Source of the DNA: a virus
DNA: 49,441 bases
Reading direction: 5' to 3' (one strand)
Virus record (IMG/VR): IMGVR_UViG_3300048839_001052
Span: 1 to 49,441 of that record
Part shown: piece after piece, positions 11,686 through 49,441 of the stretch
How positions within the stretch are numbered: the stretch's first letter is position 1
Layout of the letters: each line of letters starts with the position of its first letter
Program-made: the position numbers and the translations under genes
The notes under the pieces: generated by a model
Databases searched by the model: none
Told to the model about the DNA's origin: nothing
Seen by the model: only the letters and a program-made list of their open reading frames with translations

Positions 11686-11729
11686 CGCTCCATCATGCTG
11701 CGCTAATGTAAGAACCGGGTGAGAGGGTG

Positions 11730-11757
11730 TTGCTGTCGCGTACTCATGATATATAAT
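11730..11757 (+). promoter_or_regulatory. Rightward promoter of the ssb operon
   Basis: TTGCTG (11730-11735), 16-bp spacer, TATAAT (11752-11757). The leader of about 43 nt contains AAGGAGA before the ssb ATG at 11807. It is divergent from the island promoter 45 bp away. Confidence 0.7.
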
Positions 11758-11806
11758 GCCGACGTTGGTTGTGTTTTGTTGTACAAAAAACTTAAGGAGA
11801 AAACGA

Positions 11807-12214
11807 ATGCACACTGTTTCTGTTGTTGGTCGAATCGGGCACGATCCCGAGATGAAGTATCTGCCATCCGGCATGGCTGTCACGAACGTATCCATCGCCA
11901 CCGACGACTACGCCGGTAAGGACGACCCCAAGCACACGACTTGGTTCCGCCTGACATTCTGGGGAGCCAAGGCGGAGGCTGTCAACCAGTACGTCAAGAA
12001 GGGCGACTGGCTGGCTGTCGTGGGCAAGATGAAGAGCGACGAGAAGGGCAATCCCCGCGCCTTCGAGCGCAAGACCGGTGAGCCGGGGGCCTCTTACGAG
12101 ATGACCGTCGATGATTTCGCCTTTATCGGCGGCAAGCAGCGGGGCGAGGATGATGGCGATGACTTCCGTGTTGTCGTCAAGCCCCTCGCCGAGAAGGACA
12201 GCAGCCCCTTCTAG
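11807..12214 (+). CDS. ssb: Single-stranded DNA-binding protein (135 aa)
   Basis: OB-fold SSB: MHTVSVVGRIGHDPEMKYLPSG at the start is a typical SSB beginning, followed by VTNVSIATDD, WFRLTFWG and a VVGKM strand. The acidic tail ends DSSPF, like the DDDIPF tip that binds partner proteins. The ATG at 11807 has AAGGAGA upstream; the frame is open earlier but has no support. It protects ssDNA and probably loads the RecA-like protein encoded next, 15 nt downstream. Confidence 0.95.
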   Translation: MHTVSVVGRIGHDPEMKYLPSGMAVTNVSIATDDYAGKDDPKHTTWFRLTFWGAKAEAVNQYVKKGDWLAVVGKMKSDEKGNPRAFERKTGEPGASYEMTVDDFAFIGGKQRGEDDGDDFRVVVKPLAEKDSSPF

Positions 12215-12229
12215 GGCCCGGGAGACATC

Positions 12230-13255: not shown

Positions 13256-13284
13256 TTGACGTAAAGCACAACCAACGCTAATAT
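13256..13284 (+). promoter_or_regulatory. Probable promoter immediately before the terminator
   Basis: TTGACG (13256-13261), 17-bp spacer, TAATAT (13279-13284). The predicted start at about 13290 lies within the terminator stem, so RNA from this promoter would lack part of the 5' arm and escape termination, whereas RNA from the ssb operon would be stopped. Confidence 0.45.
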
Positions 13285-13285
13285 T

Positions 13286-13316
13286 AAAGGCAGGTTAGAA
13301 ATCTAACCTGCCTTTT
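13286..13316 (+). terminator. Intrinsic terminator after the ssb operon
   Basis: AAAGGCAGGTTAGA (13286-13299) is the exact reverse complement of TCTAACCTGCCTTT (13302-13315), followed by T and ATTA. It separates the recombination genes from the capsid genes. The next ATG begins 4 nt after it. Confidence 0.85.
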
Positions 13317-13319
13317 ATT

Positions 13320-13466
13320 ATGTCCGGTCACAGCATTGTAGCTAAATGCAGGGTCTGTGGCGTTCAGTGGGTCGTCAAGGCCCCGGGCGTCGATGACCAG
13401 GGTTGCCAGTTTTGCGGGGCACCCGCCGACGCTGTGACCACCACCCAAGAGGACGAGGATGACTAA
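13320..13466 (+). CDS. Small zinc-ribbon protein (48 aa)
   Basis: ATG at 13320 directly after the terminator encodes 48 residues: KCRVCG (Cys10, Cys13), a short strand region, then CQFCG (Cys29, Cys32) and an acidic tail. A single rubredoxin-like zinc ribbon. No ribosome-binding site is visible, but the stop overlaps the next gene's ATG, so it is part of the capsid operon. Such small zinc proteins before the scaffold gene are seen in other phages; function unknown. Confidence 0.7.
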   Translation: MSGHSIVAKCRVCGVQWVVKAPGVDDQGCQFCGAPADAVTTTQEDEDD

Positions 13467-14031
13467 AGAGACTCAGGAAGTCCAGGTCAACGATGATGAT
13501 GTTGAGGTTGAGGAGCTTCTGGCGACAGCCGAAGAGCTTGAATCCAGGGACCCTACCTCCGAGGCGAGTGACATTATCCGCAAGCTGCGGCGAGAAAACG
13601 CGAGGACGCGGGTCGCCAAGAACCAGATTGCGGGTGAGTACGAGAAAACGCTATCCATGACGGCGGAGTACGAGAAGAAGCTGGCTGAACTGGGCACCCA
13701 GGTCGAACAGCTTCAATCCACAGCCGCCGAGAAGGAAAGCTCGCTCACTAAGTTTCTTGAGGAACTGAGCGAGGTGAACAGTACGGTCGTAGCAACGTTA
13801 CCCGAAGAGGTACAGGCTATCGTCCCCGGTGGACTAAACGCCCTTGAGTTGCGCAAATGGTTGGATACCGCCGTGCCCGTGTTGACGAGACGCCCAACGA
13901 AGCCGCCCCTGGGCTCCGAGGAGGGCGCATCAAAGCGGGGCCCACAGGGTCCGTCGCTGAACGATGACGAGCTTATCGTTGCCCAGCGACTCGGGCTCAG
14001 TCCCGACGATTATGCTAAGCACAAGAGGTAA
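13459..14031 (+). CDS. Scaffolding protein (190 aa)
   Basis: Acidic N-terminus, a long predicted coiled coil (about residues 35-100) and a polar C-terminal part with basic residues and a short helix at the end: the usual build of phage scaffolds, which fill the prohead and are lost before DNA packaging. Position just before a decoration-like protein and the major capsid gene supports this. No protease motif, so removal may be by exit or by an unrecognised protease. Confidence 0.75.
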   Translation: MTKETQEVQVNDDDVEVEELLATAEELESRDPTSEASDIIRKLRRENARTRVAKNQIAGEYEKTLSMTAEYEKKLAELGTQVEQLQSTAAEKESSLTKFLEELSEVNSTVVATLPEEVQAIVPGGLNALELRKWLDTAVPVLTRRPTKPPLGSEEGASKRGPQGPSLNDDELIVAQRLGLSPDDYAKHKR

Positions 14032-14034
14032 GGA

Positions 14035-14463
14035 ATGGCTACGAAAGGCTTTGAATACGCCTATTCCCTAGACGGAAGCCGACCGACTATCATGGACATG
14101 CCGATGAGTGGCACGGGGGCGTTCGCCAAGGGCGACGCCGTTGTGTTCTCCTCGGGCAAGCTGACCAAGGTGACGAATACTGTCGCCACCGTGTCCGGCG
14201 TCGTCCAGGAAGCGCGGGCGAGTGGCTCCGATGGGGGTTTGCTCCAGGTTGCCCTTGCAACCAAAAATCAGGTATGGCGGGTCAGCGCCGACGACACCAC
14301 GCTGTCGGCTACGCTGGGTGCCCGCACGTTGGATGTCGTTGACGCGAACACGCTCGACGCCAGCGACGCCACCAACGGCTCCCTGGTTCTTATTGACAGC
14401 GATACGGACAGCGACGGCAACGTCCTGGCCTATGTCGCCTTCTCGATCACGACTGTGGGGTAA
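14035..14463 (+). CDS. Probable head decoration / capsid-stabilising protein (142 aa)
   Basis: A beta-rich protein with many Ser, Thr, Val and Asp, between scaffold and major capsid genes. The FAKGDAVVFSSGKLTKVTN region with a later VSGVVQEA resembles small beta-barrel phage decoration proteins. Size and position are the main evidence. It starts 3 nt after the scaffold gene. Confidence 0.6.
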   Translation: MATKGFEYAYSLDGSRPTIMDMPMSGTGAFAKGDAVVFSSGKLTKVTNTVATVSGVVQEARASGSDGGLLQVALATKNQVWRVSADDTTLSATLGARTLDVVDANTLDASDATNGSLVLIDSDTDSDGNVLAYVAFSITTVG

Positions 14464-14469
14464 GACAAG

Positions 14470-15393
14470 ATGGCACAACTAATTTCCCAAAACTGGCCCA
14501 TTCTGTTGGAGCCGGGTTTGCGAGCCATTTTCGAGTTGGCCCGACAGCCGATCATCGAGCAGAGCCGCATCCCGAATTTCTTCAACGTCACCACCAGCCA
14601 AAAGGCCCAGGAGCACGACCAGGGTCTAGGCGGGATGTCCGACTGGAACGAGTACGGTGGGCAGATCGAGTACGACGACACCGAACTCGGCTACAAGGTC
14701 ACGTACACCCACAAGGAGTACGCCAAGGGTATCGCGATTGAGCGCAAGCTCGTTGACGACGATATGTACAATATCATCAACAACCGCGTCTCCCTGCTGG
14801 CCCTGACCGCCGAGCGTACTCGCGAGAAGCACGGCGCATCCGTGTTCGATCTGGCCTTCAGTTCGGCGCAGGTTGGCGGCGACAGCAAGCCCCTGTGCGC
14901 CTCGGACCACCCGGCATCGCCGGTCAATGCGACGACCCAGAGCAACGCCGGTTCGACCGCGCTGAGCTACGATTCCATCATCGCCACGCGCAAGTTGATG
15001 CGGGCCTTCAAGGATGACACGGGCGAACTGACGCCTATCATGCCGGACACCATCTTGGTGCCACCGGCGCTCGAGGAGACCGCCTACTACGCTACGCGGG
15101 CCGTTGTCGAGCCCACTGACGGCACGACCGCCAGTGAACCGACGAATCCCAACTACGTTCGGAGCAAGGGCTTCAACGTCGTGGTCTGGGACTACCTGTC
15201 GGACACGAACAACTGGTTCATGATCGACTCGAGCCTCGGCAAGCGTCACCTGCACTGGTTCAATCGCGTTCCGCTGGAATTCGCCTTTGACCCGACCGGC
15301 GGCTACGACTTGGTGGCCCGCTATCGCGGCTACATGCGGTATTCCTACGGATTCAGCGACTGGCGCTGGATTTACGGTCACGCCGTCGCGTAA
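14470..15393 (+). CDS. Major capsid protein, Mu gpT-like HK97 fold (307 aa)
   Basis: The sequence shows the pattern of the Mu-like major head subunit: an N-terminal arm, then FFNVTTSQKAQEHDQ, GLGGMSDW, YTHKEYAKGIAIERKLVDDD (the spine-helix region), PLCASDHP and a C-terminal RGYMRYSYGFSDWRW. At 307 residues it has the right length for a capsid without a cleaved domain. It builds the icosahedral head; the previous genes supply scaffold and decoration. Confidence 0.9.
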   Translation: MAQLISQNWPILLEPGLRAIFELARQPIIEQSRIPNFFNVTTSQKAQEHDQGLGGMSDWNEYGGQIEYDDTELGYKVTYTHKEYAKGIAIERKLVDDDMYNIINNRVSLLALTAERTREKHGASVFDLAFSSAQVGGDSKPLCASDHPASPVNATTQSNAGSTALSYDSIIATRKLMRAFKDDTGELTPIMPDTILVPPALEETAYYATRAVVEPTDGTTASEPTNPNYVRSKGFNVVVWDYLSDTNNWFMIDSSLGKRHLHWFNRVPLEFAFDPTGGYDLVARYRGYMRYSYGFSDWRWIYGHAVA

Positions 15394-15641
15394 TGGGCAA
15401 GCCCATCAATGATTCAGGGTCGCGGCGCGGGGTACTAACCTGCGACGTGACCCTGATGGACACGGGATTTCGCCGTAGCGCCGGGTCAACCGTCTACGAG
15501 ACCGAGGTTACCCCGGAGATGTGGGCGAACTGGATTCGGGATGGCGTCATCGGCGTCCCCGATCTGCCTGACCCCCGCGAAGAAGGCACACCAGCGAAGA
15601 GAACCGCAAGAAAGCGCGGTTCCAGGAGCGTGTTAGAGTGA
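15393..15641 (+). CDS. Hypothetical protein (82 aa)
   Basis: Not recognised. Starts on the last base of the capsid gene (TAATG overlap). Contains a short beta region and a very basic C-terminal tail (KRTARKRGSRS), suggesting an RNA- or DNA-contacting end, or a tail buried near the capsid interior. Likely a minor head-neck or regulatory protein. Confidence 0.65.
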   Translation: MGKPINDSGSRRGVLTCDVTLMDTGFRRSAGSTVYETEVTPEMWANWIRDGVIGVPDLPDPREEGTPAKRTARKRGSRSVLE

Positions 15642-15994
15642 TTTCAGAGATTCACCTTCCATTCACAACTGCTGCTGACGGCAGCGCCACGGCAACGGCA
15701 TCAGTGGATTCCTTTGGTCGCTTGGTGGCTGTCAACTGGGAAGATGGCGACCTAGCCGATGGCGTTGGTGCTGTCTTGTCCTGCGTTGGTGCTGGGAGAC
15801 CGGACCAGACGCTTCTGACGCTGACCGCCGCCAACGATGACGCATGGCACTATCCCACAGTTCAGGCGAAGTCCGCTGCGGGCGCGGCGATCACTTGGTA
15901 CGAGAAACCCCTGGTAACCGGCAAGCTAAAGGTAGTTGTATCCTCTGGCGGTAACGCCAAGACTGGATCGATTCGCGCCTATGTCGAGCGTTAA
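15638..15994 (+). CDS. Hypothetical beta-rich structural protein (118 aa)
   Basis: GTG start at 15638 overlapping the previous stop (GTGA). Short repeated strands (TATASVDSFGRLVAVNW and similar), LTLTAANDDAWHYPTVQ and a C-terminal IRAYVER resemble a protein that commonly precedes connector genes in siphoviruses. Possibly a minor capsid or neck protein; no catalytic motif. Confidence 0.65.
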   Translation: MISEIHLPFTTAADGSATATASVDSFGRLVAVNWEDGDLADGVGAVLSCVGAGRPDQTLLTLTAANDDAWHYPTVQAKSAAGAAITWYEKPLVTGKLKVVVSSGGNAKTGSIRAYVER

Positions 15995-15996
15995 GT

Positions 15997-16401
15997 ATGT
16001 TCACATACGAAACCTCGCTGGCTACGTCCAAGGATAGGGTCAGGTTCCAAATCGGGGACACCGACCCCGAAGCCGGGCCCCGACCGGACAGCAAAACCTT
16101 CAGCAACGAGGAGATCGAGGCTGTCATCGCCCTCGAGGGCACGTGGCAGCGGGCGGTCGCTGCTCTGTTCGAGGTCCTGGCTGCCGAGTGGAGACAGCAC
16201 CCCACCTTTTCAGCCGATCAATACAGCATCAGCAACTCTCATATCAGCCGGGGTTACCGGGATGAGGCGGATGCTTGGCGCAAGCAGTACGGATACGCCG
16301 GTGAGCCGGTGGCGGCTGGTGGCAGCAAGGTCAAGAGCGTCAGCCCCGTGCGAGTAGACGCATACAGCGACGACCTAACCATCTCGGGACAAGATGATTA
16401 A
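15997..16401 (+). CDS. Head-tail connector (adaptor) protein (134 aa)
   Basis: All-helical N-terminal domain: VRFQIGDTDPEAG followed by FSNEEIEAVIALEGTW and ALFEVLAAEW is the typical start of gp6-like adaptors that bind under the portal. The C-terminus is a disordered Ser/Val tail. It is first of a series adaptor, stopper, gp10-like, tail terminator. Confidence 0.8.
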   Translation: MFTYETSLATSKDRVRFQIGDTDPEAGPRPDSKTFSNEEIEAVIALEGTWQRAVAALFEVLAAEWRQHPTFSADQYSISNSHISRGYRDEADAWRKQYGYAGEPVAAGGSKVKSVSPVRVDAYSDDLTISGQDD

Positions 16402-16792
16402 CCGGCGACAACTGGCGGTCTTTAGGGACAGGAACGAGCGGTACATGACAGACACGGTTCTCCATATGAGGGCCGTTTTGTCCACTGGCTCATATGGCGA
16501 GTCTGCTCGCACCTACACCACCGCCGCCACGTACGCCTGCGGTTTTGCCTTCAGCCCCTTCAAGTTCCGGGCTCGCGAGATAGACAGCGAGGTGGCAATG
16601 GAGATCAGCGAGGTCCTGGTCCGCGCCCGCCTCCCCCAGAGCGCCCAGGGGCAGATCGAATCAGAGGATCGCCTCGTGCTGATTAAGAAGTGGGGAGAGA
16701 CGCTCGACACGCCGGTCTCGTTTGAGGTTCAGGGCTTTGAGGAGATGGTCCTGCCGGGCATAATCGTCAACCTGAAGAGGATTGAGCTATGA
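16394..16792 (+). CDS. Probable head-closure (stopper) protein (132 aa)
   Basis: A basic start (RRQLAVFRDRNERY) followed by a beta-barrel-like region with VRARLP and FEVQGFEEMVLPG. Small beta-barrels at this place in the order act as stoppers that seal the portal and receive the tail. Overlaps the adaptor gene by 8 nt. Assignment by order and fold look. Confidence 0.65.
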   Translation: MINRRQLAVFRDRNERYMTDTVLHMRAVLSTGSYGESARTYTTAATYACGFAFSPFKFRAREIDSEVAMEISEVLVRARLPQSAQGQIESEDRLVLIKKWGETLDTPVSFEVQGFEEMVLPGIIVNLKRIEL

Positions 16793-17304
16793 CGAACTTC
16801 CGGGTTAACGTCAAGGTCACCACGGAGGGCGACCGGGGCGGTGGCGGGATGCGCCGCATTTACGAGAGAATCAGAAAGATAGACACCGGTGCCAAGCGGT
16901 CAAGGGGCGCTGCGTCTCTGGCTATGGCTGTTCGGGTTGCCGACGAGATCGTCGCCACCGTCCAGGGTGCCTCGGGCGGCGGCGAGACGTGGAACGAGGG
17001 TCACCCCAAGTTCGTTAAGAGGTGGCAGAACTCGTACGAGAGGTCATCGTCAACGCCCGGCAACCCCCCGCGAGACCAGTGGGGTGGTCTTGTTGATTCG
17101 GTTTATACGGTCAAGGTGTCGGAGAGAAGCGCGAACGTCGAGGTCCGGGCTCCGTACGCCGTTTACCATGAGTTCGGCGATTGGACGTCGTTCTTCGGCA
17201 ACAGTATCGGCGCGAGACCGTTCATTCGCCCATCGCTAGAGAAGGTGTCGGGGGAACTCGGGACCATAGCCGAAGCCGCCTTCCGTAATGAGACCGGATT
17301 GTAA
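16789..17304 (+). CDS. HK97 gp10-like tail-completion protein (171 aa)
   Basis: The C-terminal half has the family signature: a strand pair with VYTVKVSERSANVEVRAPYA, then YHEFGDWT and ARPFIRPSLEKV, typical of gp10-like proteins (tail completion / neck). The N-terminus is helical and basic. Overlaps the neighbours by four and one bases. Confidence 0.85.
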   Translation: MTNFRVNVKVTTEGDRGGGGMRRIYERIRKIDTGAKRSRGAASLAMAVRVADEIVATVQGASGGGETWNEGHPKFVKRWQNSYERSSSTPGNPPRDQWGGLVDSVYTVKVSERSANVEVRAPYAVYHEFGDWTSFFGNSIGARPFIRPSLEKVSGELGTIAEAAFRNETGL

Positions 17305-17708
17305 TGGCACTCACTGAACTGTTCTATTCAGAGCTAGTCGCCGCTGTCGGCTCCCTGGTCGGCGGGCGCGTGTACATCAACCCCATTCCGCCAGGATCGG
17401 CAACGCCGGTTGTGGCCTACAAGCGCGTCTACGGTGCCCACACCCGCCGCCACACCGCTGCTGGCTCGTCCAACGGCGTGGCGAGTCAGTGGCAAACCCG
17501 GTGGCAGATAGATGTGCTGTCTAAGAGTTACGCCGACATAGAAACTGTGATGTCTGCCGTTGCTGACTACTTCGGCAGCATGTCGGACTACACCTCGGCA
17601 CCCCTGATATATGACTCTGTTGTCGATATGGCGTTCACCGTATGGGATGGCACTGCGGAGATGCACCGGGGCATCATGAACGTCTCTATGCTTTCATCTT
17701 CGTCATAA
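17304..17708 (+). CDS. Tail terminator-like protein, DUF3168 type (134 aa)
   Basis: Starts ALTELFYSELVAAVGSLVGGRVYINPIPPGSATPV in outline and continues with a strand-helix-strand (WQIDVLSKSYADIETVMSAVADYF), the arrangement of tail-terminator proteins that cap the tail tube and contact the neck. Its place after gp10-like and before a tail-tube gene would be standard, but here the sugar/sulfate transferase gene lies between. The stop overlaps the next ATG (TAATG). Confidence 0.8.
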   Translation: MALTELFYSELVAAVGSLVGGRVYINPIPPGSATPVVAYKRVYGAHTRRHTAAGSSNGVASQWQTRWQIDVLSKSYADIETVMSAVADYFGSMSDYTSAPLIYDSVVDMAFTVWDGTAEMHRGIMNVSMLSSSS

Positions 17709-35862: not shown

Positions 35863-36777
35863 ATGACCTCAGAGCTACCAGCCGATCTAATTCAATTCAG
35901 CGGTAACGGCAACATACAGCGAGCAGGAAGGTACGAGTGGTCGAGTTCCTGCCCCTACTGCGGCGGCGAGGATCGCTTCAGGATGTTCGCCAAGAGCGAG
36001 AGGGGTAACGCGAGGTACTGGTGCAGAGTGTGCGGCAGGAGGGGGTTCGCCGACGAAGGGGGTGTCGAGGATATAGCAGAGGCGAGGGCGAGACGGATGG
36101 AGTGGGAAGCGCGACGGGCGGCGGAGAGGCAGGAGAAGATCGAGAAGCTACAGAAGGATGCCTACTGGCGGGGATGGCACGACGCCATGACAGCCACGGG
36201 GCGGGAACTGTGGTCCAGCCGTGGGCTGCCCGGGGACGCGCAGGACTGGCTAGAGTTGGGTTACACAGACAGCCCGCCTGCTGGTGGCTCCCCCGCCCTG
36301 ACCATCCCCTACCACAGCGATAGCTGGGATGTGGTCAACCTGCAATGGAGACTCATCCAACCAGACGAGACCGGCAAGTACCGCAACACCCCGGGTTTGC
36401 CACTGGGAGCCTACCTGACAGACCCTAAGCCAAGCAGCAAGAACATGCTCGTCGTAGAGGGTGCAATCAAGAGCGCCGTAGTTTGGTGGCGTCTATCAGT
36501 CGTCGCCGGTCTGGACTACTACGTGGTGGGAATCCCCTCATCGACGCCATCGGCAGAGGTTATGGAGCACGTGTCGGGCATGGACTACGACAGGGTTTAC
36601 GTCATGACCGATCCCGACACCTACCACGGGAGCAGCCCACCGGCTAAGCGCGTTGGGGGGTGGTTCGACGAGCCACTTTACGTTAGACTACCTGCCAAGC
36701 CAGACGACCTGCTGAACGAGGGCTGGTCGGCGCGGGACCTGGACGCATTTATCAGGCAGGCGACATACAATGTCTAG
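35863..36777 (+). CDS. DNA primase (zinc finger plus TOPRIM-like, 304 aa)
   Basis: Zinc-binding domain at the N-terminus with CPYC (Cys30, Cys33) and CRVC (Cys54, Cys57), then a charged helical linker (residues 65-100) and a TOPRIM-like core: VVEGAIKSAVV (Glu199) and MTDPDTYHG (Asp250, Asp252), the metal-binding residues for nucleotide transfer. It makes RNA primers for replication together with the DnaB-like helicase at 39881. The start follows a -10 box by 6 nt; no Shine-Dalgarno sequence. Confidence 0.85.
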   Translation: MTSELPADLIQFSGNGNIQRAGRYEWSSSCPYCGGEDRFRMFAKSERGNARYWCRVCGRRGFADEGGVEDIAEARARRMEWEARRAAERQEKIEKLQKDAYWRGWHDAMTATGRELWSSRGLPGDAQDWLELGYTDSPPAGGSPALTIPYHSDSWDVVNLQWRLIQPDETGKYRNTPGLPLGAYLTDPKPSSKNMLVVEGAIKSAVVWWRLSVVAGLDYYVVGIPSSTPSAEVMEHVSGMDYDRVYVMTDPDTYHGSSPPAKRVGGWFDEPLYVRLPAKPDDLLNEGWSARDLDAFIRQATYNV

Positions 36778-37438
36778 ACTAGAACCGGAGTTAGCCCAAC
36801 TCATTTACGTGCAGGACTACATGGCCCGCCTGCTGGTCTCCACCAAGCGCCGCGCTCGCCACATGTCCAACCTGGGCTACGAGGATGGCGCTGTCATGTT
36901 GGAGTCATTTGCAGCCCGCGTGGGAGAGACAAAGGACGTCTACACCAAGAATCTCCGCCTAGCCATAAAGGAACACCCCATGCAGGTGGCGGCAGCGCCC
37001 GTGACGGGGTTAAACGGCATCAGGTTATTCCGGGTGCTGTACTACGTTGACTGGGAGAAAGCCCCTACTCCGGCATCACTTTGGCGCTATTTGGGCATGG
37101 GGGTCACGGATGGCAGGAGCGACTTCATTCGCTCCATGGCCTATCATGACATACACTGGAGCAAGAGTGCCGGGCGTGCCATGAGCGCCATGCGTCGATT
37201 CATCTGTGGCAGGTCCTCTCCCTACCGCCCTGTGTACGAGGCGCGGCGGGTCTACGAGGAGAAAGAGAAGTTCCACAACGCACGCTACTCTGCGTTGAGG
37301 GCCGGGAGATACACCACGAAAATGTACCTGAAGCATTTGTGGGTTGCCTCTCGTTATGTGTACCAACTGCCCTCTGCCGGGGTTCACGAGCTTGACCGCT
37401 CGCCCGGACCAGAGGAATTTGGATGGGTCCTGGGGTAG
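36770..37438 (+). CDS. IS110 transposase C-terminal-like protein (222 aa)
   Basis: From about residue 70 the sequence resembles the C-terminal (Transposase_20) half of IS110-family transposases: a VTGLNGIRLFRVLYYVDW segment in the place of GIGxxtA, LWRYLGMGVTDG for the LAAYLGL region, HWSKSAGRAMSAMRRF, then SPYRPVYEARRVYEEK and a helical end with HLWVASRYVYQL. The RuvC-like catalytic DEDD domain is missing; the N-terminal 70 residues are a helical basic segment. So it is probably a DNA/RNA-binding protein, not an active transposase, in the replication operon. It overlaps the primase gene by 8 nt. Confidence 0.5.
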   Translation: MSRLEPELAQLIYVQDYMARLLVSTKRRARHMSNLGYEDGAVMLESFAARVGETKDVYTKNLRLAIKEHPMQVAAAPVTGLNGIRLFRVLYYVDWEKAPTPASLWRYLGMGVTDGRSDFIRSMAYHDIHWSKSAGRAMSAMRRFICGRSSPYRPVYEARRVYEEKEKFHNARYSALRAGRYTTKMYLKHLWVASRYVYQLPSAGVHELDRSPGPEEFGWVLG

Positions 37439-37441
37439 AAT
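37436..37441 (+). promoter_or_regulatory. TAGAAT -10 box before the leader ORF
   Basis: TAGAAT spans the stop of the previous gene and lies 6 nt before the ATG at 37448. No convincing -35 is seen. Confidence 0.4.
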
Positions 37442-37447
37442 TTAATC

Positions 37448-37528
37448 ATGGGGGCATGGCGCGGAATAGCTACCCTACTTATAGAAGTAACCCAAAGCGC
37501 AACCCCCACCTTATTCTATAAGAGGTGA
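37448..37528 (+). CDS. Possible 26-aa leader peptide before a membrane-protein gene
   Basis: ATG at 37448, 26 codons (MGAWRGIATL... ending LFYKR), stop at 37526-37528, which overlaps the ribosome-binding site (AAGAGGTGAG) of the gene at 37532. It has a -10 box 6 nt upstream and a small inverted repeat (CTTAT-TCT-ATAAG) near the end. A regulatory or coupling peptide is likely, but coding is not proven. Confidence 0.4.
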   Translation: MGAWRGIATLLIEVTQSATPTLFYKR

Positions 37529-37531
37529 GAA

Positions 37532-38212
37532 ATGACGAGAGAGCCGATGGTAGTTGATTTTCGAGGTGCGGTCAGCAAGGCGGTGCTGATCCTGATTTAC
37601 ATTGGGTCGGCGACGATCAGTGGGTTCTGGTTCTGGAGAGAGCTACCGGGCCTGCTGATGGACCCGGCCCGATTCCCGACGCTCGCCCCAGCCATGAGCG
37701 CCCTGTTTGGTGTCGCCATCATGGAGTTGGCGGTCATCGCCTGGAACTACAAGGTCAAGCGAGACACGGGCGTTGAGGGGGCGCAGCGATGGGTGGCGTG
37801 GTTCGGTCTGATCGCCGCCATCTCCATGAGTGGGCTGACAACCTTTGCGGCAGTCATGTCCTTCATCGGCAGCGGCAGCGATTTGGTTGGCGGCTACGTG
37901 GTTGAGTTCGCCACGCAAAACGGCATGGCATACTACACATTCCTTCAAATTCTTTTGGTGGCGCTGTTCAGCTTCGTGTTCGATCCCGATACCGTCGCCC
38001 AGCCGGAGCGCCCTCGCAAGGCGACCAAACCGGGCAGCGTTACGACGATCTCCTCGCCGCAGCGCAGTCAGGCCAGTGTCCCCCGAACCACGCAGGCCCC
38101 GGACTTCCAGGCCATCCTGGGCGTAACGGGAGCAGAGGCTGGTTCTCGCCCTACGCAGGCCCCGGTCTCCCAGAGACCAGCGGGCGGCGAGAGTCGGAGC
38201 CAGTCGGCCTAG
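37532..38212 (+). CDS. Four-pass membrane protein (226 aa)
   Basis: Hydrophobic helices at about residues 14-33, 50-70, 87-110 and 128-148, then a Pro/Ser/Gln-rich polar tail of about 75 residues, likely cytoplasmic and disordered. Start with AAGAGGTGAG directly upstream. Not recognised as a transporter family. In the replication operon it might anchor the replisome to the membrane; that is speculation. Confidence 0.7.
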   Translation: MTREPMVVDFRGAVSKAVLILIYIGSATISGFWFWRELPGLLMDPARFPTLAPAMSALFGVAIMELAVIAWNYKVKRDTGVEGAQRWVAWFGLIAAISMSGLTTFAAVMSFIGSGSDLVGGYVVEFATQNGMAYYTFLQILLVALFSFVFDPDTVAQPERPRKATKPGSVTTISSPQRSQASVPRTTQAPDFQAILGVTGAEAGSRPTQAPVSQRPAGGESRSQSA

Positions 38213-41678: not shown

Positions 41679-44600
41679 ATGATAATTCGACCGAACATTG
41701 GACATGTTTTTACCAGTATCTCGAAGCCCACTGGGGTAGGCGAGAAGTATTGGCGTCCCGTTTTGAGTAACGGCGGGCGCATCACCGTTCACAGTATCGA
41801 TGCTGCCGGTCCGATTCTCGAGGCCCTGAAGATGGCGCAGTCTTTGGGTGTTGACCATAACGTATCGGCGGAGTTCCGGGTTACCGGGATTCACGCCGAC
41901 GAGGGGCGTTTTGTGGACGTGCCCAACTACAACCTGGACCCGGAGCAGGCTGCCGAGGATGATTTCCCGTGGCATCTGGACCGCTGGAAGCGGGCCTTCG
42001 GGAGCGATTGGGATTTCGTTCGCACTCGCTGTTACTTCCGGGTGTACAACGAGCCGGACCAGGAGCGTTCGGAGTGGCTGGCTAAGAATGCCTTCCGGCA
42101 GCTTGAGTTGGCTCACAAGTTTGGGGTGCGGGTATCCCTGTTCGGGTGGAGCGCGGGCACGCCCGACTACCCGGCGTGGGAGGCCCCGGTTATGGCGAGC
42201 CTGCTGGAAGAGCTCTCCGAGCGCCCATTTTCCGCTGCCGTCTCCCTGCACGAGTACAGCTTGACCGATGACGTCATCGTGTCGGTTGCCGCCGAGACCG
42301 GGCGTTCCTACGATTTTGTCAAGCGCTCATATCTCCTGGATGTCGGTCTCTTTACATCTGCCGTCGAGAGCGTAACCACGCTCGATGGCGCGGAATTTGT
42401 GAAAGCCGTTCTCGAGGCCAGGGGAATGGTTATGGCGGGGGCAACCCTTAAGGCGTCGCTTCTGGACTTTGGCGATCCGCCGCTGATGATTGACGGGATC
42501 ATCGAGAGCGTGACGGCTGGCGTTGATCACGACCTGATCGGTCGGTGGACGAAGGTGCCCGGTCTGCGGAAGTGCACGCTGCTGTTCTCCGAGTTTGGCT
42601 ATGCGGAACGGTCTGCGCCACCGAAGGAGAAGATCGTTGCCGATCTCAATAGTGCGTGGACAGCGTACTACAGCTACCCCAACGTTCACGGGATGGCCCT
42701 TTGGGTTCTGGACCCGACGTGGGGCAACCTTCAGTCAACATGGCTCGCCCTGCTGCCCGACATTGCCAAGCTGAACCTGGAGGCGGAGTACGAGGTCCCC
42801 GATGGCGATCCCGAACCGGAGCCGGAGCCAGAACCAGAGCCGGAGCAGCCCCCGAGTAAGAACCAGATTCGCAACGGGGACTGGACCGAGGGCTGGACCA
42901 AAATCGACGCCACAAACCTACAGATGAACGAGTGGCGACTGGAGTGGGAAGATGACGACTCCTTTGATCCCCCGGAGTGGACGGTGAAGGGGCGGGGGCA
43001 GTTGCCGAGCCACGAGCAGTCCTACGTCAACCCGATCAGCGGGGTAACATACAAGGTGTTCGGCTCTCACGCGCCATTCCAGACGAGAATGGTCCAGGAT
43101 AACGTGATTTTGCGGGATGGAAAAAGACAAAAGCTAATCGTACGAGGCTGGTTCGAGGCTTACACGGTCGAGAACGGCAAGCGCTACTACGGCACCGTCG
43201 ATCCCTATCAGGCCAAGATGGAGCTAAAGGTCAATGGCTCTGTCATCGCAACTCGCGAGATGGTTCTCCATCGGCGGAGCGAGCTTGCGCCGGTGGGCGA
43301 GACGTACGACGGGGCGTACGAGTTTGAGGTTTCCGGCGAGTTCGATGCCGGGGATTTGAATAAGGTGGCGATTCGCTTTGAGAGTCGCTGGGGAATCAGC
43401 ACGAACTGGTTCATTAAGAGTGTAGGAGTTTACGAGATGGCGGAAGATGATTTTGCGTTGGATCGGGGCTACGTGTGGCAGCAGGCGATGGCGCTGCGTG
43501 CGCTGAATCTGAATGATGATGCCGCACTCCAGAAAAAGATTGTCGGTGACGGGTGGGTGCCGGTCTCGCCTGAGCGTTGGATTACCCAGCCCAACGGTCA
43601 CAAGGTGGCTGTCCAGGCGGCGGAGAACCCGGTGTCCCGCGTGCGCCGGGCGTATTGGGCCAGGGTGGGTGATTGGCAGAACGTGTCCTTCATCGGCTCC
43701 GGTGAGCTAGAGACTCCCGGCAATCCCATCGACGGGGCCTACATGCTGAAAGTGAGCGGCTACAGTCAGCGCGACCCGGCGTGGTCCACCATGCGCCTCG
43801 GAACCGTGGGTAGCGAGAAAACAGTCGGTCAGTTTGGGTGCTTGGCGCTGGTTTACTACATGATGGCTGACTTCTGGGACCTCGAGTCAACCGCTTCGTT
43901 CCCGGAGTTTCACGACCGGCTAGTCGGCAAGGGGGCGTTCAGTGGGCACTTCATCTTGCCCGGGGCCCTTGACATTGCCTATGGCAACGATGTGGACAAC
44001 CTGGGCTGGCGTCCTCGCTCGAGCGCCGATTTCTGGAAGCTGATTCGCTACTCCCTTTACGGGGTCGAGGTGGGTGGCCCTGCGCCCGTTGCGGTTCGCG
44101 TGGACTTCAACCCAGCCACCCCGCAAGAGGAGCAGCACTGGGTCCTGGTCATCGGTCACACCGGCGACTTCCCGCCGAACGGCAAGCCGAGCGATCTCGT
44201 GATTCTCGACCCCTGGGACATGCGCCCGGAGCCCAAGCTGCTTGGCGACTCCTACCCGATAGACGGTGACGACGCCCTGGAGATGCTGTACTACAAGCGC
44301 GTTGACGCCAGGGACAAGTATTACATCGGCTCCTGCTTCCCTAGCCCGATGCCCGATGAAACGGTGTCCCGTGGTCCGGTTGTATCCTTCCGCCACAGCG
44401 CGAACAGCCCGCACCCAAACCATCAGGAAAACATGCAGTTGGTCGATCTTCGGATCGGTCGCGGCGCTTACCCCTGCATCATCAAGGACGGCAATGTGGA
44501 GCAGGTGTGGGTCGATGGCAGCCGGGTGATGCGCCTATGTGACACGTCGCACGGTAACGAGACGTTCTACTCGCTCGAGACGGTTGGGACCAGCTTGCCC

Positions 44601-44981
44601 GCTGCCTGGATGCCAGCCTGGATGACCCTGGGTGAGGAGTACGAGAGCCGGGCGACGGTGAGCATTTACTACAAGGAAGCGCCTGTTCGCAAGGCTTCCC
44701 TGGCGTACGACGCAACGACGTATCTGAAGCTGGTTCGCGTTGACAAGAACGTGACGTTTGGCGGCGAGGTCATTCCCGTCGTATACGTCGTAGAGGGTAG
44801 CGACTGGAAGCACCGCCCGTTCGAGCGCTGGTACCTAGCGCCGGACCTGGGCTATGTTCGCTGGGAGAACCTGACTGATGGGTGGTTTACCGAGGCGGTC
44901 ACCATCGACGAGGACGGGGGACTTCCTATGCCCCCCGCGCCCCCGGCAATGCAGCTACTGGCAAAGTCGAAGGGGTGGTGA
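41679..44981 (+). CDS. Giant modular lysin: glycosidase-like domain plus C39-like peptidase (1100 aa)
   Basis: Residues about 1-375: TIM-barrel-like glycosidase with YNEPDQE (Glu125, possible acid) and LFSEFGYAER (Glu305, possible nucleophile). Residues about 379-394: an (EP)n linker. About 400-590: beta-rich carbohydrate-binding-like part. About 690-870: C39-like cysteine peptidase, GQFGCLALVYYM (Cys721), QHWVLVIGH (His820) and LVILDPWD (Asp844), order and spacing fitting a papain-like triad. The rest (to 1100) is a beta-rich C-terminal part. AGGAGAG precedes the ATG. It probably cuts cell-wall glycans and cross-links and leaves the cell through the holin. A tail-associated role is the alternative. 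Confidence 0.75.
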   Translation: MIIRPNIGHVFTSISKPTGVGEKYWRPVLSNGGRITVHSIDAAGPILEALKMAQSLGVDHNVSAEFRVTGIHADEGRFVDVPNYNLDPEQAAEDDFPWHLDRWKRAFGSDWDFVRTRCYFRVYNEPDQERSEWLAKNAFRQLELAHKFGVRVSLFGWSAGTPDYPAWEAPVMASLLEELSERPFSAAVSLHEYSLTDDVIVSVAAETGRSYDFVKRSYLLDVGLFTSAVESVTTLDGAEFVKAVLEARGMVMAGATLKASLLDFGDPPLMIDGIIESVTAGVDHDLIGRWTKVPGLRKCTLLFSEFGYAERSAPPKEKIVADLNSAWTAYYSYPNVHGMALWVLDPTWGNLQSTWLALLPDIAKLNLEAEYEVPDGDPEPEPEPEPEPEQPPSKNQIRNGDWTEGWTKIDATNLQMNEWRLEWEDDDSFDPPEWTVKGRGQLPSHEQSYVNPISGVTYKVFGSHAPFQTRMVQDNVILRDGKRQKLIVRGWFEAYTVENGKRYYGTVDPYQAKMELKVNGSVIATREMVLHRRSELAPVGETYDGAYEFEVSGEFDAGDLNKVAIRFESRWGISTNWFIKSVGVYEMAEDDFALDRGYVWQQAMALRALNLNDDAALQKKIVGDGWVPVSPERWITQPNGHKVAVQAAENPVSRVRRAYWARVGDWQNVSFIGSGELETPGNPIDGAYMLKVSGYSQRDPAWSTMRLGTVGSEKTVGQFGCLALVYYMMADFWDLESTASFPEFHDRLVGKGAFSGHFILPGALDIAYGNDVDNLGWRPRSSADFWKLIRYSLYGVEVGGPAPVAVRVDFNPATPQEEQHWVLVIGHTGDFPPNGKPSDLVILDPWDMRPEPKLLGDSYPIDGDDALEMLYYKRVDARDKYYIGSCFPSPMPDETVSRGPVVSFRHSANSPHPNHQENMQLVDLRIGRGAYPCIIKDGNVEQVWVDGSRVMRLCDTSHGNETFYSLETVGTSLPAAWMPAWMTLGEEYESRATVSIYYKEAPVRKASLAYDATTYLKLVRVDKNVTFGGEVIPVVYVVEGSDWKHRPFERWYLAPDLGYVRWENLTDGWFTEAVTIDEDGGLPMPPAPPAMQLLAKSKGW

Positions 44982-45725: not shown

Positions 45726-45776
45726 ATGGTACCACCGGACTTTTACGGGAGACGCAGATGGTACCTCGGGACTTTT
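45726..45776 (+). repeat. ATGGTACC repeat pair (right-centre)
   Basis: ATGGTACCACCGGACTTTT (45726-45744) and ATGGTACCTCGGGACTTTT (45758-45776), 32 bp apart. The same motif occurs twice at 49385 and 49405. Both pairs are followed by C-rich sequence. Confidence 0.85.
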
Positions 45777-45805
45777 GACCCCCCTGTGCCCCACATGCGT
45801 CCAAC

Positions 45806-45833
45806 AAAAACCCACCAAATCAGGTGGGTTTTC
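45806..45833. terminator. Bidirectional intrinsic terminator
   Basis: AAAACCCACC (45807-45816), loop AAATCA, GGTGGGTTTT (45823-45832), then CTTATTT rightward; leftward the RNA ends in GGTGGGTTTTTG. The leftward gene's stop (45820-45822) lies in the loop, so its last codons form one arm of the stem. Confidence 0.9.
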
Positions 45834-46242
45834 TTATTTGCCACTCTTGGACTTGTCCCATCTGTTCCCGATAGTCCCTCGCCAGCGCCCAAAACGGGTC
45901 GTACCACTTGTCCTCGAAACCCCTGGTAGCCTGTCTCAGAAAACCCTCGACGTTCTCTTGGGGAAACTGGGCTTGGGCCAGGAAGTACGGGATAGAATCG
46001 ATGGCCTCGACCACCGCCTCGTGCTCTGTTTTCCCGGAAGCCGCGAATCTTGGCCTCGTGTTGAATGGTGCCACTCTTACGAACATCTCCAGGTGGTACT
46101 TGTGGTGCCGTTCCGGGTCGAATCTAAGGATCAGCCCGTCCCTCATATCGATCAGGCTCAGTAGAATTTCCTTTGCCGTCTCGGGCCACAAGCTGCCGAC
46201 CAGCTTCTCGGTCTCGCTCATTTCGATTTTTTCGCTGTTCAT
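45820..46242 (-). CDS. Hypothetical protein (140 aa)
   Basis: Not recognised. Helical N-terminus (ETEKLVGSLWPETAKEILLSLIDMRDG in outline), a middle with HHKYHLEMFVRVAPF and an acidic region near HEAVVEAIDSIPYFL. AAGGAGACG lies nine bases before the ATG. It is the only leftward gene between the candidate RNA and the right TTCGCATAG array, so it might be a regulator of the region. A minus-strand CATAAT at 46307-46312 is the only promoter hint. Confidence 0.75.
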   Translation of the reverse strand: MNSEKIEMSETEKLVGSLWPETAKEILLSLIDMRDGLILRFDPERHHKYHLEMFVRVAPFNTRPRFAASGKTEHEAVVEAIDSIPYFLAQAQFPQENVEGFLRQATRGFEDKWYDPFWALARDYREQMGQVQEWQIRKPT

Positions 46243-46373
46243 CAGCCACGTCTCCTTTCGTCGCCCCCCGGCTGCGCCCGCTGCGCCCGCCTCTGGGTTC
46301 CTCTGTATTATGGTAGCCGCAAGGACCGCCTCTACCTTCAGCTATTCCTCTGCCCCCATCTATCGCGGCCCAC
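46243..46373. other. Non-coding leader region upstream of the leftward gene
   Basis: Contains the ribosome-binding site of the 46242 gene, two GGGCGCAGC direct repeats on the minus strand and the weak CATAAT. Frames here on the minus strand are open through the repeats but are artefacts of the array. Confidence 0.4.
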
Positions 46374-46528
46374 TTCGCATAGTCCCCTCTGCTGCCTCTT
46401 GGGTTCTGTTTCGCATGGCTCGCTCGAACCGAGAGGGCCCTCTTCGCATAGTCCCGTCGCTCCGGTCGAGGCCCTGGAGAGGGGTGGGTGTTTCGCATAG
46501 TCCTTTTCGCATAATCCTCTTCGTATAG
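46374..46528 (+). repeat. Right TTCGCATAG array (six copies)
   Basis: TTCGCATAG starts at 46374, 46443 and 46492; variants TTCGCATGG at 46410, TTCGCATAA at 46506 and TTCGTATAG at 46520. Spacings 36, 33, 49, 14 and 14 bp; the last three form a 14-bp tandem repeat. Same strand orientation as the left array and, like it, non-coding. Confidence 0.85.
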
Positions 46529-46656
46529 TAGTGGATAGCGCGGGGTAGGTCAATGCCCTCTATACCCTGGCTCATATTGCCGAACTTGTATAATAAGGAA
46601 GAGCAACGGGGCTACACTGCTGAACATTAGTAGAATATGAGTGCCATATAAAACTC
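46529..46656. other. Non-coding stretch between array and promoter
   Basis: Contains an isolated TATAAT (about 46591) without a -35 match. No gene seen. Confidence 0.4.
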
Positions 46657-46685
46657 TTGCTATTGGATGATAGATTGACTATAAT
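46657..46685 (+). promoter_or_regulatory. Rightward promoter of the right-end cassette
   Basis: TTGCTA (46657-46662), exactly 17 bp, TATAAT (46680-46685). The same -35 as the candidate RNA promoter. A leader of about 57 nt precedes the GTG at 46749. Confidence 0.75.
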
Positions 46686-46748
46686 GTCATTGTAATTGAT
46701 TAACTTGAGCGCCCGGCTCCGTGGCATTGTAACGGGCAAGGGAGAATA

Positions 46749-47399
46749 GTGGACAACCTGAGTAACCTGAGCGAAGAAAGCAAAAAAGCCCTATTTGAGG
46801 CCCTTGCGGGCGAGTATACCGGGCGAAAAAGACTGGCTATCAGTCAGGCTTGGGGTGAGTGGAGTGACCCGCGCCAGTGGGATAACCTGGGCGAGTTTTA
46901 TGTCGGTCGTCGGGCTCACAACCGCTATGGCATTGGCGAACCGGTGGATGGCGAAGAAGAGTTCAACGAGGATCACCCGGATGGTGTATCGCTGGCGGTT
47001 TATCTTTATGACCATTCTGGCGTGGACATCCGGGTCGAGGGCGGCCCCCGGCGTTTTTGGCACCATGAGGCATGGGATAGCGCTTACATAGGGTGTTACC
47101 ATGCGGGCGAGGAAGCGATCCGCGAGTGGTTCCAGTTGGGGTCAGGTGACTTGGGCGAACCGGTTTTCAATCAAGCGGTTCAAGCCATGATCGTCGAGGT
47201 CGAAACATACGCGGCATGGCTCAGGGGCGAAGCATACAACCTGGCTATCGAGAGTGAACGCAGGGACGGCTCCTGGGAAGTGGCGGATGGGGATGAGGAT
47301 CGCGAGGTGCAAACCTATGGCGATCTTTACGGGACAATTGAGCGAGAGTTTCCCGAATTCTGGCCCGATGAGGATAACTGGTATGTCTATTACGCCTAG
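46749..47399 (+). CDS. Conserved phage protein of unknown function (216 aa)
   Basis: GTG start with AGGGAGAATA directly upstream. Its middle, SLAVYLYDHSGVDIRVEGGP and WDSAYIGCYHAG in outline, resembles a recurrent small phage protein family with a YLYDHSG and CPWDSGQVGF-like pattern, known from actinobacterial and other phages. Acidic overall. First gene of the right cassette, so probably early; an anti-host or anti-restriction role is only inference. Confidence 0.7.
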   Translation: MDNLSNLSEESKKALFEALAGEYTGRKRLAISQAWGEWSDPRQWDNLGEFYVGRRAHNRYGIGEPVDGEEEFNEDHPDGVSLAVYLYDHSGVDIRVEGGPRRFWHHEAWDSAYIGCYHAGEEAIREWFQLGSGDLGEPVFNQAVQAMIVEVETYAAWLRGEAYNLAIESERRDGSWEVADGDEDREVQTYGDLYGTIEREFPEFWPDEDNWYVYYA

Positions 47400-47586
47400 G
47401 CCCTGGGAGATGATGCTCAATGCCTTGGAGATCATGCAATCCGAGATCGAGGGTGACCCATTTTATAGGATGGGCCTAGATGGGCTCCCTCTTCCTGATG
47501 ATGCCGACGATGGCGAGGCTGGGTTATATTGGCTGGGCGTGGACGATAGGGAGATGATGAGCAATGAGTCGCGGGTTGTCACCTAA
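47383..47586 (+). CDS. Hypothetical protein (67 aa)
   Basis: Not recognised. ATG at 47383 within the end of the previous gene (17-nt overlap), with GATGAGGATA upstream. Helical start (WEMMLNALEIMQSEIEG) and an acidic end. The next gene starts inside it. Confidence 0.6.
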   Translation: MSITPRPWEMMLNALEIMQSEIEGDPFYRMGLDGLPLPDDADDGEAGLYWLGVDDREMMSNESRVVT

Positions 47587-47773
47587 CAGCAAGACCGTGA
47601 TCTTTATCGCCCTAGTGTTGCTGATGGGCGTGGCGCTGATTGTATTCGGTAGGCCATACCTGGACTACTTGACGTGGCTGACGATTGATTGCGATCCCCT
47701 AAATGACTTCCTAACCCATATGGTAGTCGGGCAGGATCAGGTTCAAGCTATTGGCGAGTTTATTTGTAAATAG
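47564..47773 (+). CDS. Small membrane protein (69 aa)
   Basis: One hydrophobic helix (about residues 11-28) after a short basic segment, then a polar acidic part with two Cys. The ATG overlaps the previous gene's end (23 nt). Single-pass, N-terminus probably cytoplasmic. Confidence 0.65.
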   Translation: MSRGLSPNSKTVIFIALVLLMGVALIVFGRPYLDYLTWLTIDCDPLNDFLTHMVVGQDQVQAIGEFICK

Positions 47774-47799
47774 CGGCAATGCCGCGAGGATGGTAAATA

Positions 47800-48009
47800 A
47801 TGCCGGATTATGGGAAGAGCACGCAGACTGTTATCAATGTTACGGGTAAGACCTTCGAGCAACTGCGGGCAGATTACGGCGGGCGTAAGCCGCAGTACAA
47901 CCTGGAAAACCTAGGGCGGCTCCGCGAGCACCTTGCGGCGCTCCTGGGCGAGGGGCGGGCCGGGGTGGTGGTGAAAGAATTCGCCGCCGACATCGGTGTA
48001 ATAATTTAA
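47800..48009 (+). CDS. Hypothetical protein (69 aa)
   Basis: Not recognised. Begins MPDYGKSTQTVINVTGKTFEQL and ends with a helix plus VVVKEFAADIGVII. No clear membrane segment. GAGGATGG precedes the ATG. Gap of 82 nt to the next gene contains its promoter. Confidence 0.6.
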   Translation: MPDYGKSTQTVINVTGKTFEQLRADYGGRKPQYNLENLGRLREHLAALLGEGRAGVVVKEFAADIGVII

Positions 48010-48021
48010 GGTTGTAGGGGG

Positions 48022-48050
48022 TTGACAATTGTCTATAGGGGGTGTATACT
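48022..48050 (+). promoter_or_regulatory. Near-consensus promoter with palindromic operator
   Basis: TTGACA (48022-48027), 17-bp spacer, TATACT (48045-48050). The perfect palindrome GACAATTGTC (48024-48033) overlaps the -35, and AATTGA-TAG-TCAATT (48061-48075) lies at the start of the transcript: two operator-like sites on one strong promoter. Confidence 0.8.
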
Positions 48051-48091
48051 GATTGTAGTTAATTGATAGTCAATTTGTAGGAGTGGTAGCA

Positions 48092-48391
48092 ATGGATAAC
48101 AGAATTTTGAGAGTTGGCAGTGTTTTCCGGGGTGACGAAGAAGTCGTCGTTTCTGCCCGCAGCGGTCAGGTCGAGGTGGAGATTTTTCCCCGTGGTGGTG
48201 GCGAGTGCCGTCGCCGGGTCGTCATGACTAGCTCCCTTAAGGGGTTTGGGCTACTCAAGGCGGTCGAGATATGGGAAGCGATTGGGGTGAGTCACGAGGA
48301 TTTCGGTAGCACCGCTGATAGCGTTTTCGATACGGCGGTCAGGGTGGCTGGTGACTATGGATGGTTGCCGGTCGAGGATTGTGTGCAATGA
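48092..48391 (+). CDS. Hypothetical protein (99 aa)
   Basis: Not recognised. The ATG at 48092 has TAGGAG upstream; a GTG three codons earlier is in frame. N-terminal half is strand-rich with VVVSARSGQVEVEIFP, the second half helical. First gene after the strong promoter at 48022. Confidence 0.65.
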   Translation: MDNRILRVGSVFRGDEEVVVSARSGQVEVEIFPRGGGECRRRVVMTSSLKGFGLLKAVEIWEAIGVSHEDFGSTADSVFDTAVRVAGDYGWLPVEDCVQ

Positions 48392-48675
48392 GCTATAACG
48401 GGGCTCCTAATAGGGAAACGTGGTTGATCGGATTGTGGAACGATGAAAGTGAGTTGCTGGAAGAGTTCGAGGATCAGTGGTGGGGTGCCAAAGAGTACAC
48501 CGCCGATGACTTTGCTGAGTGGCTAGAATCTTATTTCGATGAGGCCCTGGCCCCGCAGATCGAGGCCATCGAGAGCATTGCTGTGGGAACCATGCTGGGC
48601 GACTTTCTGGACATCCCGCTGGGTGAAGTGGACTGGCTGTGGATTGCTGAATTAACGTTGTCAGACAGAGACTAG
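48388..48675 (+). CDS. DUF7249-like phage protein (95 aa)
   Basis: MSYNGAPNRETWLIGLWNDE matches the recurrent phage start YNG-x-x-N-x-ETW-x-x-LW-x-N-D-E. The rest is helical and acidic. The ATG at 48388 overlaps the previous gene's end. Function unknown; relatives occur among early genes of many phages. Confidence 0.7.
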   Translation: MSYNGAPNRETWLIGLWNDESELLEEFEDQWWGAKEYTADDFAEWLESYFDEALAPQIEAIESIAVGTMLGDFLDIPLGEVDWLWIAELTLSDRD

Positions 48676-48695
48676 TTTACATAAGGAGATTAGAG

Positions 48696-49355
48696 ATGTT
48701 TACGATTTATCACACTGGGCGGTTGTTCTGGACTGATAAGCCTATGGTCATCGAGGCCAACGGCGAGACGGTCAATTTCCCGCAGGGTCTTGCGGTGAAC
48801 GTGGTGCAGTACATGGATACTATCGACATCCGGATCGACGCGGGCAACCCGTTCGACCGGGTCACCGAACGGATCGACGTGGGCTGGATTCCCATCGGTC
48901 TGGACACTCTCGCAGAGTCCCTGGATTGGGACCTGCGAGAGTGCACGGTCGGCGAGGCCCTGGTGCGGGCGGGTTACGCCGAAGATGAGATCGAGGCCAT
49001 CAGCGAGGGTACCCTGGAAGCCCTGGAAGCCCATGCCCTGGGCCTGGGTATCGGTGTCACGGAGATCGCTCTGGTGGACTTCAGCGGGTACAAGTGGGAC
49101 ACCCCTGAGCGCAAAATCTTCGATGAGTTCGTTATGCTGGTATATGACCGCATCGCGGGCGACTTCGATGACCTGGAGTTCACAGAGCGGCTCGCGCAAG
49201 AGCTTAAGGGTCTTTCTCTGTCGGAGTTGCTGGAAGAGATCGGCGCTGCGGTTGAGTCGGTAGCAGAGAGCTATGTGTACGAGTTGGCTAACTACTTCAT
49301 CGAGTCCGATTACCCCATCGAGGTGATCAGCGGCGAAGAGGAAGAGGAAGAGTAG
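48696..49355 (+). CDS. Acidic hypothetical protein (219 aa)
   Basis: Not recognised. Strongly acidic with a run of Glu at the end. N-terminal half strand-rich, C-terminal half helical (SLSELLEEIGAAVESVAESYVYELANYF in outline). AAGGAGATTAGAG precedes the ATG. Last gene before the right-end repeats; its transcript would read through them into the terminator at 43-77 if the ends join. An acidic DNA-mimic is a possible role. Confidence 0.7.
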   Translation: MFTIYHTGRLFWTDKPMVIEANGETVNFPQGLAVNVVQYMDTIDIRIDAGNPFDRVTERIDVGWIPIGLDTLAESLDWDLRECTVGEALVRAGYAEDEIEAISEGTLEALEAHALGLGIGVTEIALVDFSGYKWDTPERKIFDEFVMLVYDRIAGDFDDLEFTERLAQELKGLSLSELLEEIGAAVESVAESYVYELANYFIESDYPIEVISGEEEEEE

Positions 49356-49356
49356 T

Positions 49357-49365
49357 TTCGCATAG
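49357..49365 (+). repeat. Single TTCGCATAG copy after the last gene
   Basis: TTCGCATAG starts 2 nt after the stop of the gene at 48696. Same orientation as both arrays. Confidence 0.8.
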
Positions 49366-49384
49366 TGTACGGGTAGGGGCGGGG

Positions 49385-49423
49385 ATGGTACCGGGGGACT
49401 TCAGATGGTACCGGGGGACTTTT
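49385..49423 (+). repeat. ATGGTACC repeat pair (right end)
   Basis: ATGGTACCGGGGGACTT (49385-49401) and ATGGTACCGGGGGACTTTT (49405-49423), 20 bp apart, then a run of C to the window end. Related to the pair at 45726. Confidence 0.85.
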
Positions 49424-49441
49424 AGCCCCCCCCCACCCCCC

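Follow-up and report, generated by a model that had tools for sequence, protein, structure and literature searches.

What does a short word do that is repeated near both ends of a phage contig? The question is raised by a stretch of viral DNA of 49,441 bases (IMG/VR virus record IMGVR_UViG_3300048839_001052, G000; the whole stretch is called the window below), in which the 9-mer TTCGCATAG occurs in eight exact copies, all on the plus strand, within a left array (223-334), a right array (46374-46528) and singly at 49357. We put at roughly one half the probability that these arrays are operator-type direct-repeat sites in double-stranded DNA for one, probably phage-encoded protein, controlling a rightward gene cassette and a divergent gene on either side of the right array.

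A repeated 9-mer far beyond chance

With eight exact copies against 0.11 expected, TTCGCATAG is over-represented more strongly than any other 9-mer in the window, and its log-likelihood ratio is 26.3, compared with a maximum of 13.6 for any 9-mer in 100 order-2 Markov genomes. Seventeen sites carry at most one mismatch (shuffle mean 8.81; 17 reached in 0 of 100 shuffles). Five of them lie outside the array regions (7158, 40639 and 42599 on the minus strand, 29069 and 32969 on the plus strand), each with one mismatch, and these are fewer than the chance level for the whole window. Equal scores at many random sites, which a first-pass annotation of this DNA had set against its own proposal of an array, were not seen. 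The motif is confirmed as real and lies far beyond chance.

The right array had been described in that annotation as six copies in one orientation, and all six stand where it placed them, at spacings of 36, 33, 49, 14 and 14 (Table 1). It named two of the three one-base variants and overlooked the third, TTCGCATGG at 46410. The left array is spaced at 35, 33 and 35, and its second and third copies share a 25-nt composite unit, with CCTTAAAGAATC at its 3′ end; beyond the 9-mer, 15 bases are repeated in these two copies.

A short element common to both arrays

Across the arrays, 34 copy pairs are 95% identical over the 9-mer, a value that is partly built in because the copies were picked by 9-mer match, and 27% identical, the random level, over the 20 bases on either side; position 10 (T) shows 68% identity. 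Because the flanks are random while the 9-mer is kept, the element is best read as a short binding site and not as a long duplication, and the same figures lend good support to the earlier proposal that one factor serves both arrays.

The open reading frames (ORFs) called mechanically across the arrays are not regarded as genes, because five of the eight spacings (35, 35, 49, 14 and 14) are not multiples of three and because two of these ORFs overlap 45820-46242, a gene preceded by a good ribosome-binding site. Read as RNA, the right array folds no better than shuffles (z 0.19), and the left region folds somewhat better (z -1.88), mostly via an inverted repeat. Most simply, the common element acts as DNA.

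Distribution of the motif in phages and bacteria

By its gene content the contig is a tailed phage. It encodes a terminase large subunit (7139-8542), a portal protein (8615-10024), a DNA primase, a DnaB-like helicase, a single-stranded DNA-binding protein and a Sak4-like protein; a helix-turn-helix (HTH)-like protein (6560-7066; profile match below cut-off) adjoins the terminase gene and is probably the terminase small subunit. On the 3′ side of the helicase gene, 41679-44981 (+) encodes an 1100-aa protein that has a homologue in contig G006; comparison with PHROGs, Pfam, NCBIfam and PDB sequences gave nothing significant. The same phage is represented by G005, which begins at window position 63 and is 99.994% identical across 63-17383, and by the further contigs G010 and G013. 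G006 (58,634 bases; terminase 59%, long synteny) is the nearest different phage found, and its exact 77-nt terminal repeat shows that it assembled as a circle. In a search limited to Chloroflexota, 4 of 400 genomes gave terminase matches of 40-44%; these matches are the sole pointer to that phylum as the putative host.

Sequence comparison marks the array as private to this phage. G006 holds zero copies of TTCGCATAG. Among 35 capsid-related loci, two fall in records already covered (G005 with four copies, G006 with none); the 33 further records searched, one of which (G013) is a same-phage fragment without the array regions, hold five copies in total, in four records and never two close together, and the reversed control word occurs in eight of the same records. 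The relatives thus lack the array whose copy number the first-pass annotation had proposed to compare between them. Clustered 8-mers like this array were found in none of 13 related records (G013 included), nor in G006 or four Chloroflexota stretches. The right-array DNA has no match in known phages, no Rfam match was obtained, and a literature search for the letters TTCGCATAG gave no title on a phage or bacterial repeat among the matches listed.

Wider candidates were rejected: with coding and tandem repeats set aside, clusters of the word are no more frequent than those of its reversed control in viruses or in Chloroflexota. In viruses, a three-copy pattern was found in seven stretches, against none with the reversed word: L008 is the same phage, L004 is an exact 29-nt tandem, L005, L007 and L010 are tandem runs with a 15-nt unit, which would correspond to coding repeats of the pentapeptide type, and L006 and L009 have no ORF in common with the window (40,000 of the 40,974 bases of the L009 record were compared). 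The two-copy 10-mer occurred in 11 virus stretches, against 17 with the reversed word. The 33 bacterial-contig stretches, from a search run without a control-word scan, are mostly exact tandems of many unrelated units; one, L025, overruns the end of a gene that we take to resemble an ATP synthase gamma subunit. For the host phylum, hits came from 2 of 400 Chloroflexota genomes, compared with 4 of 400 for the reversed word, and one of the two was the centre genome, picked for having an array; a TTCGYATA triple pattern occurred in 1 of 151, the centre genome alone. Such privacy is as expected for sites co-evolving with a lineage-specific protein, and it means that comparative evidence on function is lost.

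Relatives carry repeats of their own. G018 has an intergenic run of AATTCGTTC in 14-16 bp steps (L155 1410-1480), and G019 one of ATGAATCCCAGTTCA in steps of about 22 bp (L124 6151-6240). G006 has dispersed words (L048-L050), ACGGCAGGG in 12 copies against 0.48 expected and TCCTGCCGT in nine against 0.14 on one strand, which stand both within and between genes.

Gene context of the right array

The right array separates a single divergent gene from the rightward cassette. The divergent protein (45820-46242) had no match in family searches or among known phages. The three most acidic cassette proteins have net charges of -28 (46749-47399), -20 (48361-48675) and -37 (48696-49355). One cassette protein gave a weak DUF7249 match; that of 46749-47399 gave five weak matches among known phages, and a scan with it found no relative. 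Phage early proteins are often very acidic, and the cassette may be an early one of the host-takeover or anti-host type. Another repeat, ATGGTACC..GGGACTTTT with a C run after it, occurs at 45726-45784 and 49382-49431. It thereby borders, on both sides, the 45.8-49.4 kb segment in which the divergent gene, right array and cassette lie, and may mark an exchangeable module.

Table 1. Positions of the motif copies and of features around them in the window.
Feature	Coordinates	Strand	Details
Right array	46374-46528	+	six copies, 3 exact and 3 one-base variants
Right-array copies	46374; 46410; 46443; 46492; 46506; 46520-46528	+	TTCGCATAG; TTCGCATGG; TTCGCATAG; TTCGCATAG; TTCGCATAA; TTCGTATAG
Left array	223-334	+	four exact copies, at 223, 258, 291 and 326
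Single exact copy	49357-49365	+	one base past the stop of 48696-49355, the last cassette ORF
One-mismatch copy	26-34	+	TTTGCATAG; immediately 5′ of the rightward terminator
Predicted intrinsic terminator	42-77	+	rightward; strong hairpin, then eight T; -19.1 kcal/mol, z -3.28
Inverted repeat	168-208		perfect, 12 bp, TTATGTCAACCT...AGGTTGACATAA; beside left array
Divergent single gene	45820-46242	-	140 aa; AAAGGAGA upstream of ATG; candidate regulator
Promoter-like site, divergent gene	46525-46553	-	TTGACC-17-TACTAT; 9/12, weak
Promoter-like site, cassette	46657-46685	+	TTGCTA-17-TATAAT; 10/12
Promoter-like site within cassette	48022-48050	+	TTGACA-17-TATACT
Lowest-GC 100-bp window of contig	46609-46708		GC 0.33; tied with one starting at 39588
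Rightward cassette	46749-49355	+	small, mostly very acidic proteins
Mechanically called ORF, left array	194-439	-
Mechanically called ORF, right array	46124-46498	-
Mechanically called ORF, right array	45908-46528	+

Left array and contig ends

No terminator is listed 3′ of the last cassette gene; if the genome is circular, the terminator at 42-77 would end the cassette. Joined at its ends, the contig reads cassette, motif at 49357, motif at 26, terminator and left array, an ordinary order, and a circle is favoured because of this order and the terminal repeat of G006. The window ends carry no terminal repeat and the join itself was not observed, so that circularity is likely and unproven. On the circular reading, the arc of sites that starts at 46374 and closes at 334 measures 3,402 bp, 6.9% of the genome. 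The earlier description of two arrays flanking a rightward cassette thus holds, tightly around 46749-49355, on the circle only; on the linear contig, each array is close to a different end and the late and replication genes separate the two.

A second word, ATTTAAGGTTG(AC), also recurs here: it is inverted beside the left array (168-208, 188-204), lies on the other strand within left-array units (266-316), and appears again near 48005, just 5′ of the strong promoter-like site at 48022.

Function of the arrays

If the arrays are operators, one sequence-specific protein would load onto the directly repeated 9-bp sites. The right array would be the control region between 45820-46242 and the acidic cassette: its trio of copies at 14-bp steps covers the predicted leftward promoter, which it could repress, and the array also lies upstream of the promoter-like site of the cassette. 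The left array and the copy at 49357 would form a second landing area, perhaps looped to the first. This assignment is supported because the right array has divergent genes on its two sides and is next to the promoter-like sites 46525-46553 (-) and 46657-46685 (+); in particular, the -10 box of the leftward site overlaps the last motif copy. The binding protein and the promoters are putative, as is the direction of regulation.

Several observations weigh against an operator role. No DNA-binding regulator was recognized among the phage proteins scanned, and the sole HTH-like protein (6560-7066) sits by the terminase gene as its probable small subunit. The array spacings are out of helical phase. 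Promoter-like sites scoring 9/12 are expected 2.2 times per region, none was found near the left array, and the layout on both sides of the cassette leans on a circularity that is itself unproven.

Next in rank, and a possibility we regard as clearly weaker, is an iteron-type origin, at which an initiator bound to the direct repeats would melt adjoining A+T-rich DNA so that the DnaB-like helicase is loaded there. The phage has such a helicase and a primase, the lowest-GC 100-bp window (tied) starts 81 bp past the right array, and the left one has an inverted repeat and DNA of lower GC next to it; for RepA_N initiators, the excerpted text of PMC7145576 reports iterons that are 8 and 9 bp long. 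No initiator homologue was recognized among the proteins scanned, however, the spacing is irregular (14 to 49) as well as unphased, and the tied stretch at 39588, which precedes the helicase gene, is equally A+T-rich. Cumulative GC skew at 49417 is a maximum, not a minimum, a measure confounded by transcription direction.

Somewhat less probable still is that the arrays are the left and right landing pair of a new phage DNA-binding system that works by looping or handcuffing without ParA, ParB, RepA or a recognizable repressor. A new DNA-binding family would then have its first representative in the product of the 140-aa divergent gene or in one of the cassette proteins. If true, that family would set the expression, copy number or segregation of the phage genome.

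Doubtful, too, is a neutral or mobile origin, in which short repeats were multiplied by slippage and bind no protein. Both the trio at 14-bp steps and the composite unit of 25 nt do resemble local duplications, and the related contig G018 has other intergenic short-repeat runs; yet the 9-mer is kept between arrays whose flanks are random, and the copies have a single orientation at three separate places. A parS-like centromere pair, with a ParB-like protein on two short-repeat sites around the cassette for segregation or copy control, is an unlikely alternative to the operator assignment. An array of short direct repeats is present and no integrase was recognized among the proteins scanned, but a linked ParA-type ATPase is missing: open frames of at least 60 codons contain no ParA-type Walker or TubZ motif, Walker A matches in open frames being those of the terminase and the Sak4-like protein only, and no ParB or ParM family match was obtained among the proteins scanned.

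Packaging sites (pac or cos) for the terminase small subunit are very improbable. The arrays lie close to the contig ends and G005 starts at window position 63; against this, the ends of the two contigs differ, the poly-C tract at the right end may be no more than a point where assembly stops, the small subunit is probably encoded at 6560, and G006, circular by its 77-nt terminal repeat, lacks the motif.

The replication module also encodes a TIGR-Tas-type solo Nop-domain protein of 222 aa (36770-37438, +). Its profile matches TasR (9mty, 2.7e-13) and TasH (21kl, 1.4e-11), its structural model (predicted local distance difference test, pLDDT, 77.5) has the fold of TasH (9vzx, template-modelling score, TM, 0.73 by query) and of TasR structures, and the NCBIfam TIGR-Tas model gives 69.9 bits, under the cut-off of 100. 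No nuclease domain was seen, and it is therefore of the TasA kind as defined in the excerpted text of PMC12045711. The G006 homologue is 35% identical, and searches run without a positive control found none in 33 other related records or 400 Chloroflexota genomes. Directly 3′ of the gene, both phages have a hairpin (37436-37535; G006 L122:1345-1475, -) whose loop contains two ACCC boxes about 18 nt apart and which folds no better than its shuffles (z -0.60 and -0.18); that it is a single-unit guide RNA in place of an array is only a lead.

That the arrays are a TIGR guide-RNA array of this Tas-type protein, or its DNA targets, is scarcely credible despite the protein itself and a left-array unit (33-35 nt) close in length to tigRNAs (36 nt), since there is no constant period and no dual-repeat unit with paired variable spacers, the 14-bp steps are too short for spacers, the arrays lie at least 8.9 kb from the tas gene, and the candidate guide hairpin is no more similar to the motif than shuffled sequences are (P 0.98, 0.53 and 0.98). 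The sole strong fixed-period array in the window is a 12-bp repeat within coding sequence at about 30972.

Comparison with known systems

In the excerpted text of PMC12045711, a TIGR array consists of alternating 8-12 nt repeats with two 9-nt variable spacers of constant size. The phage resembles such systems in its Tas-type protein and in the 33-35 nt left unit; the alternating edge and loop repeats and the two variable 9-nt spacers are absent here, and by that published definition the arrays are not TIGR arrays.

A further comparison is with the operators and stoperators of Cluster A mycobacteriophages, which in the excerpted text of PMC9283540 are short, asymmetric intergenic sites of fixed orientation. 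All copies here likewise lie on the plus strand, with the cassette and opposite to 45820-46242 and the left-end genes. Stoperators, however, are 13-bp sites spread along the genome, whereas the present sites are clustered and the outlying ones are one-mismatch sites at chance level; a stoperator-type HTH repressor gave no match in the proteins scanned, which did not cover every small ORF. Iteron origins (P1 RepA, lambda O, and RepA_N elements such as PLE) likewise have several direct repeats beside an A+T-rich stretch, but here no initiator was found, the spacing is irregular and unphased, and the two arrays are 3 kb apart at best.

The closest published layout found is parS-L and parS-R of mycobacteriophage RedRock (excerpted text of PMC7157519). 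No ParA or ParB homologue was found here, the spacings are irregular and the cassette encodes acidic proteins; in common are two arrays of short direct repeats (8 bp in RedRock, 9 bp here), a small cassette and no integrase seen. The array is new as an instance of a kind already known: a small cis-element, statistically secure, from a phage lineage in which no regulator has been studied, together with a few candidate binders. Naming the binder would yield either a new phage DNA-binding family or a familiar class in a poorly known host group.
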